From Halorhabdus utahensis DSM 12940 (GTDB lineage: Archaea > Halobacteriota > Halobacteria > Halobacteriales > Haloarculaceae): a DNA stretch of 64,000 nucleotides. The notes below the pieces were generated by a model that saw only the letters and a list, made by a program, of their open reading frames with translations, ran no database searches and had not been told where the DNA came from. This document shows, piece by piece, positions 34,561-45,765 of the stretch. A program made the position numbers and the translations under genes. Location of the stretch: positions 1,116,001 to 1,180,000 of the forward strand of contig NC_013158.1 in the NCBI RefSeq assembly GCF_000023945.1, written 5' to 3'. The first letter of the stretch is position 1, and each line of letters opens with the position of its first letter.

Positions 34561-35544
34561 CTACCCGGGAGCCGGCGCGTCGACATCTGAGACAGTCGGG
34601 ACGGGGATCGAGTCGAGAACGTCAACGAGGACGTCGCGCTTATCGACGTTCTCGACGGTCGCGTCGGGTGTGAGGACGAGCCGATGGGCGAGGACGTCCG
34701 GCGCGATCGTCTTCACGTCGCCCGGCGTGACGTACTCTCGCCCCTCGATGACGGCGCGGGCGCGGGCGGCTTCGAGGAGTCGCTGGGTGCCACGCGGCGA
34801 GACGCCAACCCGGATCTGGGGCTGATCGCGGGTCGCCCCGACGATGTCGGTCATGTAGGCGATGAGATCGTCGGTGACAGTGACGTCCTCGGGGAGGGTC
34901 TGGATGGCCGTCACCCGATCGGGTTCGAGCACGGCCTCGACCGACGGTGTCTTGCTCGCCCGGTCGGTCCGTCGCCGGAGCAGCGTCTGCTCGGCGTCAG
35001 GATCGGGATACCCGATACTCGTCTTGACGATGAAGCGGTCGATCTGGGCCTCAGGGAGCGGGAACGTCCCCTCGCTCTCGACGGGGTTCTGGGTCGCGAT
35101 CACGAAGAACGGTTCGGGCAGGTCCCGGGTCGTCCCGTCGGTCGTCACCTGTCCCTCGGACATGGCCTCAAGCAGCGCGGCCTGGGTCTTCGGCGGGGCG
35201 CGGTTGATCTCGTCGGCCAGGACGACGTTGGCGAAGATCGGTCCCTCGCGGAACTCGAAGTCCCGCTCGCGCTCGTTGTAGATGTGCGAGCCGGTCACGT
35301 CCGCCGGGAGGAGGTCGGGTGTGAACTGGATGCGGTTGAACGAGAGCCCGAGCGCCTCGGCCATGCTCCGGGCAGTCAGCGTCTTGCCCGTCCCGGGGAC
35401 GTCTTCGAGGAGGACGTGCCCGCGGGCGAGGACGCCGGTCAGGACGGTCTCGAGGAACGTGCGATCCGCGATCACGGTTCCTTCCATCGCATCAAGGACG
35501 TCGGTACAGCGGGCGCTTGCGTCGGAGATGTCGAGTGAGGGCAT
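34561..35544 (-). CDS. MoxR-type AAA ATPase
   Basis: A 327-residue AAA+ protein. Walker A is LLEDVPGTGKT (residues about 46-56), the MoxR-specific IQFTPDLLPADVTG follows, Walker B is VLADEINRAPPKTQAALLEAM, sensor 1 is FFVIATQNP, and PLPEAQIDRFIVK completes the lid. MoxR ATPases act with DUF58/vWA proteins as chaperone-like machines. It is the first gene of a five-gene operon whose members overlap or nearly touch. This operon separates trpCBA from the other aromatic genes. Confidence 0.9.
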   Translation of the reverse strand: MPSLDISDASARCTDVLDAMEGTVIADRTFLETVLTGVLARGHVLLEDVPGTGKTLTARSMAEALGLSFNRIQFTPDLLPADVTGSHIYNERERDFEFREGPIFANVVLADEINRAPPKTQAALLEAMSEGQVTTDGTTRDLPEPFFVIATQNPVESEGTFPLPEAQIDRFIVKTSIGYPDPDAEQTLLRRRTDRASKTPSVEAVLEPDRVTAIQTLPEDVTVTDDLIAYMTDIVGATRDQPQIRVGVSPRGTQRLLEAARARAVIEGREYVTPGDVKTIAPDVLAHRLVLTPDATVENVDKRDVLVDVLDSIPVPTVSDVDAPAPG

Positions 35545-37463: not shown

Positions 37464-39137
37464 TCAGTTCTCGTCGAGCAACACGTCAAGCGTCCCTTCG
37501 TCGACGTGTTGGCCTTCCCGACCGGCGACGTAGGTTTTTGCGGCGGCGACGGCCCGCCCGGTCTGGGGGTCACCGATCTCGGCGATTCGGTCGGACTCGA
37601 GCAGGTCGGCCGTCCAGAACGACTCCTCGTAGTCGATCTCGCCGCGGATCAGGCCCCGGCACAGTGAGACGAAGACGCTGTTCATCGCGTCCGTGACGTG
37701 ACTCGCCTCGAAGCCGATGCTGTCAGCGAGTTCGTCGACGTCGATCGGTTCGCCGCCGGTCGTCGCCGCGAAGAAGACGGCCCCGGCGGCCAGTTCCGGC
37801 GCGGCGAACGCCGCGTCGTCCGCCGCCGGTTCGTAGTGTTCCAGCGTGCGGCGACTGTCCTCGAGAACCGTCTCGGAAAACTCGATATCCTCGGCCAGTG
37901 ACTCGACGACGTCCGACGGCCCGCGCCGCGGGATGTCGACGGCGGCGATCTCCCCGAGGCGGTCGAGCCACTGGTAGAGCGCCCGCGTCCCGAAGTCGCG
38001 TTCCGCTGCGACCGTCGCCGGATCGAGATCGCCATCGTTGAGTCGGCTGCTGGCGATCAGTGCCGCACCCGCGAATTCGGCGGCGTCCTCGACAGCGACG
38101 CTCTCGGCGGCGTCACTGACCAGGCCCCGGGCAAACAATCGCACGGACGCGTCGACGTCGAGTGCCTCGACCAGTGCGTCGACCTCGCTGTGGACGGCGT
38201 CGATCGTCAGGTCCGCACCGAGTTCGTCCCGATCACCCGGAATCCAGGCGACGGTCTCGCCGGCGCGCCTGGCCGCGAGTTCGCCGCGATCGGCGAGGTC
38301 CTGCAGTCGATCACCGACACGCTCCTCGGGTGCATCCAGCGCCTCGGCGACCGTCGCCGTGGTCGGGAGTTCGTCCGGGAACATCCCGCGGACGGCATCC
38401 ATACACGCGTCGGCCGGGACGTCCGAAACCCCGCCGTCCGAGGCGGAGGATTTCGCGTCCGGTCGCCCGGTGTCCGCGGACGCTCCGTCCTCGACGGCGT
38501 CCGCCTGATAGCGTCGGGCGTCCAGGCCCCCCTCGTCCAGCACTTCCCGGAAGGCTTTGTACCGGTTCTTGATCGTGACGCCGCCGGCCGCGCCGACATC
38601 CGCAACCTCGTTGGGTCCGACGCCGTCGACGCCGTTGGCCTCCGCCGCGAGGACGAGTGACGCGCCGGCCGTCTCCGCCGGGGAGGACGCCTCGGCGACG
38701 ACGCGGGGGGCCTCCCGGAAGACGTCTGTGAGGATTCGCTTGCCGGCCGTGCCGACTGCTTCGGACAGATCAAGCGTGTCGGCGTAGCGCTCGACCAGCG
38801 TGTCGGGGCGCTCCGGGGGGTGGTCGATGTCGAGCCGGTCGGCGACCGCCTCGATCTGTTCGGGGAGGCGTTCGGGATCGAGTTCGGTCGCCTCCGGATC
38901 CGCAAGCAGATCAGTCCACGGTTCGACGATGTCCCGACCGGTGATCGGGAGACCATCTTCCCGACAGGAGAGTGCGAGTACTGCCGGCGCAATCTGGTTG
39001 AACTGTGCCGCGTCGACGTCCGCCTCCCCGTGGAGATGGTCGAGACGGACGCGGGTGATCTGCAGGGTACTATCGGGTATCTGTAACTTCTCTGCCACAT
39101 CGTAGAGCCGGTTTTCGTAGGTTTCGTTGCTTGCCAT
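37464..39137 (-). CDS. TFB-like protein with doubled cyclin core and no zinc ribbon
   Basis: A 557-residue protein. Residues about 5-75 and 110-200 look like the two cyclin repeats of TFIIB/TFB, the second ending GGVTIKNRYKAF in place of the TFB recognition-helix pattern VTIRNRY. Residues 205-240 are a linker, and 255-300 a winged-helix-like segment (VAEALDAPEERVGDRLQDLADRGEL). Residues 318-395 and 405-495 form a second, more divergent pair. There is no N-terminal CxxC zinc ribbon or B-finger, so it cannot recruit polymerase as TFB does. DNA binding or TFB competition is a guess. TATA AGTTAAGAGC at 39162-39171. Confidence 0.6.
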   Translation of the reverse strand: MASNETYENRLYDVAEKLQIPDSTLQITRVRLDHLHGEADVDAAQFNQIAPAVLALSCREDGLPITGRDIVEPWTDLLADPEATELDPERLPEQIEAVADRLDIDHPPERPDTLVERYADTLDLSEAVGTAGKRILTDVFREAPRVVAEASSPAETAGASLVLAAEANGVDGVGPNEVADVGAAGGVTIKNRYKAFREVLDEGGLDARRYQADAVEDGASADTGRPDAKSSASDGGVSDVPADACMDAVRGMFPDELPTTATVAEALDAPEERVGDRLQDLADRGELAARRAGETVAWIPGDRDELGADLTIDAVHSEVDALVEALDVDASVRLFARGLVSDAAESVAVEDAAEFAGAALIASSRLNDGDLDPATVAAERDFGTRALYQWLDRLGEIAAVDIPRRGPSDVVESLAEDIEFSETVLEDSRRTLEHYEPAADDAAFAAPELAAGAVFFAATTGGEPIDVDELADSIGFEASHVTDAMNSVFVSLCRGLIRGEIDYEESFWTADLLESDRIAEIGDPQTGRAVAAAKTYVAGREGQHVDEGTLDVLLDEN

Positions 39138-39244
39138 GCCGGGGGCTTCTTCGGCCACGCTCTTAACTGTTGAACGACCGGACAAATGACTGACACCACA
39201 GCGAACTCGCACTGTCAACGCCGATACGACGGCGAAGTCGTGTG

Positions 39245-39328
39245 ATCCATCACGTTCAGGCCGGACCGCCCAATCCATCACGTTCAAGCCGGACCGCCCA
39301 ATCCGCCACGTTCAAGCCGGACCGCCGC
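39245..39328. repeat. Three 28-bp tandem repeats upstream of aroB'
   Basis: Units at 39245-39272, 39273-39300 and 39301-39328 are near-identical 28-bp copies, each with CACGTTCA(A/G)GCCGGACCGCC. They end 12 bases before the aroB' ATG. The number of copies could change by slippage, altering promoter spacing. They do not have the spacers of a CRISPR array. Confidence 0.85.
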
Positions 39329-44793: not shown

Positions 44794-45765
44794 TCAGGCG
44801 GTCGGGATCGACTGCTCGGCTTCCAGCAGTTCGTGGTAGCGGTTGCGGATCGTGACTTCGGAGATGTCCGCGACCTCGCTGACTGCAGCCTGGGTGGTCT
44901 TCTCGTTGGTCAACAGCGAGGCGGCGTAGATCGCGGCGGCCGCGAGCCCGACAGGGCTCTTTCCGGAGTGGACGCCCTCCTCTTTGGCGTTGGCGAGCAG
45001 TTCTCGCGCACGGCGCTCGGCCTCCTCGCTCAGCTCGAGATCCGAGGTGAACCGTGGGACGTAGCTCTCGGGATCGGCCGGGCGGACTTCGAGGCCGAGT
45101 TCACGGACGACGTAGCGATACGTGCGGGCGATCTCGTCTTTCTCGACCCGGGAGACGTCGGTGAGTTCGTCCAGGCTTCGCGGGACGCCAGCCTGACGGG
45201 CGGCAGCGTAGACGGATGCCGTCGAGACACCTTCGATGGATCGACCGGGGAGCAGATCCTCGTCGAGTGCCCGCCGATAGATGACCGACGCGGTCTCGCG
45301 AACGTTCTCCGGGAGTCCAAGCGCGCTTGCCATGCGGTCGATCTCGCCCAGCGCCTGCTTGAGGTTGCGCTCCTTGGAGTCACGCGTCCGGAAGCGCTCG
45401 TTCCACTTCCGGAGGCGCTGCATCTTTTCACGCTGGCGCGACCCCAGCGAGTTGCCGTAGGCGTCCTTGTCACGCCAGTCGATGTTGGTCGACAGCCCCT
45501 TGTCGTGCATCATGTTCGTCGTCGGGGCACCGACGCGGGACTTCTGGTCTTTCTCCTTGGCGTCGAACGCGCGCCACTCCGGACCGGGATCGATCTCGTC
45601 TTCCTCGACGACGAGTCCGCATCCCTGGCAGACGGTCTCGCCACGCTCGGTGTCCGAAATGAGTTTGCCGTCACACTCGGGACACTGGACGTCCGAGGTC
45701 TCTGCTTCGTCTTCTGTGACGTTCGTCGACTGATCGAGTCGGGTTCTGGTGTTGGTCTCGCTCAT
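44794..45765 (-). CDS. tfb: Transcription initiation factor IIB
   Basis: A 323-residue TFB. The zinc ribbon has CPECDGKLISDTERGETVCQGCG in pattern (two CxxC pairs near residues 24-45), then the B-finger region around EWRAFDAKEKDQKSRVG. Two cyclin repeats follow, each with the AAARQAG and AAIYAASLL type helices, and VTIRNRYHELLE at the end of the second. It recruits RNA polymerase to TBP-TATA. Its promoter region is 297 bp long and carries an inverted repeat around a TATA box, suggesting regulation. Haloarchaea usually have several TFB genes. Confidence 0.94.
   Translation of the reverse strand: MSETNTRTRLDQSTNVTEDEAETSDVQCPECDGKLISDTERGETVCQGCGLVVEEDEIDPGPEWRAFDAKEKDQKSRVGAPTTNMMHDKGLSTNIDWRDKDAYGNSLGSRQREKMQRLRKWNERFRTRDSKERNLKQALGEIDRMASALGLPENVRETASVIYRRALDEDLLPGRSIEGVSTASVYAAARQAGVPRSLDELTDVSRVEKDEIARTYRYVVRELGLEVRPADPESYVPRFTSDLELSEEAERRARELLANAKEEGVHSGKSPVGLAAAAIYAASLLTNEKTTQAAVSEVADISEVTIRNRYHELLEAEQSIPTA

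Follow-up and report, generated by a model that had tools for sequence, protein, structure and literature searches.

A gene of Halorhabdus utahensis DSM 12940 at positions 37464-39137 on the minus strand of the window (the 64,000-nucleotide stretch of DNA analysed here, which belongs to a single chromosome of 3,116,795 bp) encodes a protein in which, to judge from profiles and predicted structure, each half is a core of the type found in archaeal TFB, giving four cyclin-type repeats in all. We use the working name TFBx for this protein. The open reading frame (557 aa plus a stop codon) is exactly the one called in the first-pass annotation, and the gene is, as was noted there, divergent from aroB'. 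The reading that we favour, and to which we give about an even chance, is that TFBx is a repurposed TFB that cannot recruit RNA polymerase and would act through proteins, as a double cyclin-box adaptor.

The predicted order of parts in TFBx is an N-terminal core, a winged helix, a C-terminal core and a conserved 57-residue tail, all encoded on the minus strand. In the N-terminal half, the first cyclin-type repeat (residues 7-101; 38835-39119) was recognized from AlphaFold helices and by hhalign to the TFB core (E=2.4e-15), and the second (residues 111-200; 38538-38807) from Pfam TFIIB, which matches residues 107-197 (E=1.3e-7), and from a profile match to PDB 1ais_B. The family profile of this half matched the TFB core of Pyrococcus woesei (1ais/1d3u) with E=2.3e-13. 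Pfam gave no match in the C-terminal half of TFBx, for which the family profile matched the P. woesei TFB core in the PDB over parts of both repeats (E=6.8e-4), while hhalign scored it at 1.5e-8 against canonical TFBs and at 2.9e-9 against the N-terminal half. Its first repeat (residues 308-398; 37944-38216) is indicated by five AlphaFold helices and Foldseek matches to TFIIB, and its second (residues 407-497; 37647-37919) by AlphaFold, the profile match (to 1d3u_B) and the column table. Run over 391 haloarchaeal genomes, the C-half profile found a match in 299, the best matches outside the family (about 4e-11) lying in TFB-sized open frames; none of the 391 genomes contained a stand-alone C-half that rose above this TFB background.

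In the AlphaFold model of the whole of TFBx (mean pLDDT 84), each half forms two bundles of five helices, and the C-half modelled alone gave a pLDDT of 86 and a pTM of 0.82. TFIIB and TFB structures headed the Foldseek lists both for the whole model and for the C-half by itself, whose best PDB matches were TFIIB/TFB cores (1d3u_B, TMt 0.61). Because Foldseek reports no query range for the whole model, a separate model of the C-half was made and searched; the per-query TM-scores of the whole model are low because each match spans only one half of the chain. The two TFB core pairs (four cyclin-type segments) proposed in the first-pass annotation are thus borne out by profiles, hhalign, AlphaFold and Foldseek; the lack of a cyclin fold in either half, named there as the outcome that would tell against them, did not arise, since five helices are predicted twice in each half. 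TFIIB and cyclins share a fold. Cyclins B, T1, A3 and D appear in the Foldseek lists after TFIIB and Brf, and Pfam Cyclin_N weakly matches seven of the 19 members of the TFBx family; but the best structural matches are of the TFIIB type, with cyclins ranking below them, cyclins have two boxes whereas TFBx has four, and tandem cyclin boxes are present in TFBx by fold only.

None of the 19 members contains a CxxC, and the TFBx chain begins at the first core helix, with no sequence ahead of it for a B-reader or B-linker; zinc ribbon, reader and linker are therefore all absent. This upholds the earlier statement that the ribbon is lacking, and it supports the accompanying expectation that TFBx would not recruit RNA polymerase. 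Core basic residues of TFB are generally assigned to contact with TBP or DNA. Fourteen basic positions that are invariant in four TFBs of the same genome were mapped onto the N-core by profile alignment, and at 10 of them most or all members of the TFBx family have a non-basic residue in the N-core; in 18 of the 19 an acidic residue stands in place of R94. R67 and R115 are retained, as is the K/R-N-R of the recognition helix. The N-cores have a net charge of -16 to -26 and the C-cores one of -23 to -38, compared with -4 to -11 for four TFB cores encoded in this genome, which function in the same salt-in cytoplasm. Thus, each half of TFBx resembles archaeal TFB and eukaryotic TFIIB in having a core of two cyclin-type repeats (by profile and predicted fold), but those proteins have a single core accompanied by ribbon, reader and linker, and TFBx adds the winged helix and tail. 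With neither the ribbon nor most of the invariant basic residues of archaeal TFB, TFBx would fall outside the TFB class by membership, though it is, on sequence, clearly TFB-derived.

Might the N-core nevertheless still read DNA? A motif of the V-T-I-K/R-N-R type is how TFB reads BRE DNA. TFBx has V-T-I-K-N-R at residues 187-192, in repeat 2 of the N-core, and most members keep V-T-I/V-[KR]-N-R there; N191 and R192 are present in all, and position 190 is K or R in 15 of 19 (E in three, Q in one), so some DNA reading by the N-core may survive. In the C-core, the column table revealed no VTIRNR-type motif. The retained helix in most N-cores, and the closer resemblance of this half to TFB (E=2.3e-13), speak for a dominant-negative or modulating TFB, in which the N-core would enter TBP-BRE complexes at certain promoters and block or replace TFB, and the C-core would bridge to a second site or factor. 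This follows the suggestion of the first-pass annotation, in which the protein might attach to DNA or TBP and either compete with TFBs or bridge them. We consider it possible but rather doubtful, and weakened in view of the 10 lost basic positions of 14 and the acidic equivalent of R94, the E or Q at position 190 in four members, the C-core devoid of a recognition helix, and the strongly negative N-core. The same loss of TFB-invariant basic residues, together with the lack of any conserved partner gene beside TFBx, makes it very improbable that the protein is still an initiation factor whose ribbon is supplied in trans or unneeded, even though non-canonical TFB paralogues exist elsewhere (Sulfolobus TFB3, reviewed in PMC7289017).

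The tail (residues 501-557; 37467-37637) follows the pattern WT..LL.S...GD..TG..IA.AK.Y.AGRE, with W508, T509, L512, L513, S515, G522, D523, K534, A538, G539, R540 and E541 invariant across the 19 members; AlphaFold predicts helices within it, and it matches no Pfam family. Pairwise dN/dS values are mostly 0.1-0.25, and over the whole gene they are 0.14-0.23 (0.14 between TFBx and its nearest orthologue). Taken by part, they are at most 0.17 for the N-core, mostly below 0.13 for the tail, and mostly 0.25-0.6 for the linker and winged-helix region; there is purifying selection on N-core, C-core and tail, and the linker is relaxed. This regional pattern shows that selection maintains the gene through its two cores and its tail.

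The 19 full-length members come from 391 haloarchaeal genomes and are all in one taxonomic family, in six genera: they occur in six of seven Halorhabdus genomes and in all five genomes of genus g7, with scattered occurrences in four other genera. A full-length copy is located on a 247.6-kb plasmid of Haloarcula rara, which indicates that the gene can be plasmid-borne; a viral or plasmid origin was considered and rejected, as there was no relative in IMG/VR (pattern scan) or in phage records. Surveys of haloarchaeal TFBs count paralogues (PMC3404096, PMC4230888), and the literature searched, a body that leaves out most subscription journals, contained no description of a four-box, ribbon-less TFB family. 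The TFBx family is thus apparently undescribed, small and strongly conserved.

Upstream of the gene is a core promoter-like element, CGTTCAACAGTTAAGAGC (39159-39176, minus strand), and all 19 members, across the six genera, have an element of the YCAAMA-TTAAG type at equal spacing upstream of the ATG, the TTAA being about 26-30 nt ahead of the start codon (about 26-29 nt for TFBx itself). This spacing is as expected for a BRE/TATA-like core promoter of the leaderless haloarchaeal type, and its constancy in 19 of 19 members supports the start codon as called. On this sequence evidence, TFBx is very probably a single-gene unit transcribed from a leaderless promoter of its own.

In Halorhabdus, TFBx lies antisense between fba2 and aroB', near trpCBA and aroD (the trp genes being named from gene order and size). 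TFBx is absent, and fba2 directly adjoins aroB', both in the Halorhabdus genome G088 and in outgroups that include G109 and G384, so TFBx is an insertion between two genes that are neighbours in the relatives examined. In a tree built from three nearby proteins, G000 and G088 group together within the carriers (support 0.92), and from this nested position G088 has most likely lost TFBx; its locus (L090), with a clean absence between the adjacent genes, represents a natural deletion. In four of the five g7 genomes (L076, L080, L081, L083), TFBx and a MoxR ATPase gene are transcribed divergently; across the genera outside Halorhabdus, the neighbours of TFBx are MoxR, GAF-domain, P450, TetR, HtpX or nuclease-like genes (MoxR apart, these names were read by eye from sequence). 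The window, too, contains a MoxR gene (34561-35544), about 1 kb past fba2. Since none of the neighbours is shared from genus to genus, the location of the gene offers no clue to what it does. The first-pass annotation had set TFBx within the aromatic region; the tie to aromatic biosynthesis at which this hints found no support, because the gene is elsewhere in all other genera and because a close relative, G088, has most likely lost TFBx but still has its aromatic genes. A role as regulator of the aromatic pathway was rejected on these grounds, and the gene orders compared show the aromatic setting to be fortuitous and uninformative about function.

The winged helix that had been supposed to join the two cores is predicted at residues 242-301 (38235-38414), as three helices and two strands, and several members show weak Pfam matches of the GntR or TrmB-like kind over it. 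This good-confidence prediction, and the presence of the domain in 14 of 19 members, could point to a DNA-binding regulator acting via the winged helix, its cyclin boxes sensing or dimerizing, that controls nearby genes (in Halorhabdus, aroB' or itself). A candidate site might be seen in the promoter region common to TFBx and aroB', where a 28-bp unit, ATCCATCACGTTCAAGCCGGACCGCCCA, is repeated three times in tandem at 39245-39326, just ahead of aroB'. G078 has two copies and the other Halorhabdus genomes examined have one, and elsewhere in the genome there is one weak site only. The copy before aroB' is, however, present also in G088, which has no TFBx, so a role of the triple repeat as a TFBx operator is not supported; moreover, the aro neighbourhood is confined to Halorhabdus, and the winged helix is missing from five members (L012, L013, L018, L021, L028) that keep the rest of the protein, which argues that it is optional and not the core activity. 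A regulator of this kind is, in our estimation, quite unlikely.

The window also contains a canonical zinc-ribbon TFB gene (323 aa; 44794-45765, minus strand), 5-8 kb from TFBx, whose synteny near aroD is conserved in Halorhabdus and in one or more further genera of the family, and there are seven two-repeat TFB loci in the same genome. We also draw attention to a 291-residue ribbon-less TFB-like protein in a 303-codon frame of this genome (C1:1733882-1734754, equivalent to L117:383-1255, minus strand), which apparently consists of a TFB core with a third cyclin-like stretch, and of which there are copies 77% identical in G093 and 39% identical in G046; and to a 152-codon open frame (L116; C1:396593-396826) containing one TFIIB repeat, scored at 38 bits.

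Ribbon-less TFB cores were also found within other kinds of haloarchaeal protein. At L035 and L036 (in G033 and G093), a single 700-residue protein combines such a core with two further domains, a class III nucleotide cyclase and a methyltransferase (L036:1363-3477; Pfam TFIIB 5e-12, Guanylate_cyc 2e-10, Methyltransf_31 4e-17), a fusion gene that was full-length in two of the 242 haloarchaeal genomes searched. Another type (L030, L031 and L118:11980-13230), with an unrelated C-terminal half, is encoded divergently from large genes, which on a Haloferax lucentense plasmid are annotated as DEAD/DEAH helicase, PD-(D/E)XK nuclease, UvrD helicase and AAA ATPase; TFB-core proteins of this type may regulate a defence or DNA-processing system. 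The Haloferax protein (WP_275880866.1, annotated as a transcription initiation factor IIB family protein) resembles TFBx in its N-terminal ribbon-less core, which is about 26% identical to the N-core of TFBx, but differs in having a single core, followed by the unrelated C-terminal part, and in lying beside a helicase-nuclease gene set. In haloarchaea, then, the TFB core seems to have been reused as a module away from initiation, and these proteins lend indirect support to the adaptor reading of TFBx.

Elsewhere, Brf proteins keep the zinc ribbon. Like TFBx, Brf1 and Brf2 have TFIIB-type cores with added C-terminal parts, and they are among the structural matches of TFBx, but they have a single core instead of two. 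Sulfolobus TFB3 keeps the ribbon and is without most of the core, which is the opposite truncation to that of TFBx. The likeness here is in the use of a TFB paralogue outside canonical initiation (PMC7289017).

How, then, might a double cyclin-box adaptor have arisen and how might it work? The zinc ribbon, reader and linker would have been lost and two TFB-derived cores then joined in one chain, so that a factor that gripped promoters was turned into an acidic, soluble adaptor for which recruitment of RNA polymerase in the manner of TFB would no longer be possible. Each cyclin-box pair, with the conserved tail, could offer a docking face for protein-protein contact, and the resulting complex might modulate transcription or another regulatory process. 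We infer that TFBx does not sit on TBP-DNA as TFB does, and that it has a regulatory role exercised through protein partners. In favour of the adaptor reading are the four cyclin-type repeats, the missing CxxC, the eroded basic positions, the acidity of both cores, the winged helix that some members do without, and the purifying selection on cores and tail. Set against the adaptor reading are the neighbouring genes, which point to no partner, the recognition-helix motif kept in the N-core, and the winged helix that most members possess. An extension of the idea, which we think unlikely, is that haloarchaea have repeatedly made ribbon-less TFB cores into cyclin-like docking modules, and that TFBx is a four-box functional counterpart of a cyclin, controlling an enzyme or the basal machinery.

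One consequence is that counts of TFB homologues based on TFIIB repeats only overcount the initiation factors of haloarchaea. For the question of how the TFIIB module relates to the cyclin module, the TFBx family provides a prokaryotic example in which two TFB cores are fused, the ribbon is gone and the basic residues are eroded. If true, the cyclin-like reading would illustrate in present-day proteins a way in which cyclins could have come from TFB; and the family offers a tangible case, open to gene deletion, in which to test whether TFB cores act outside initiation.
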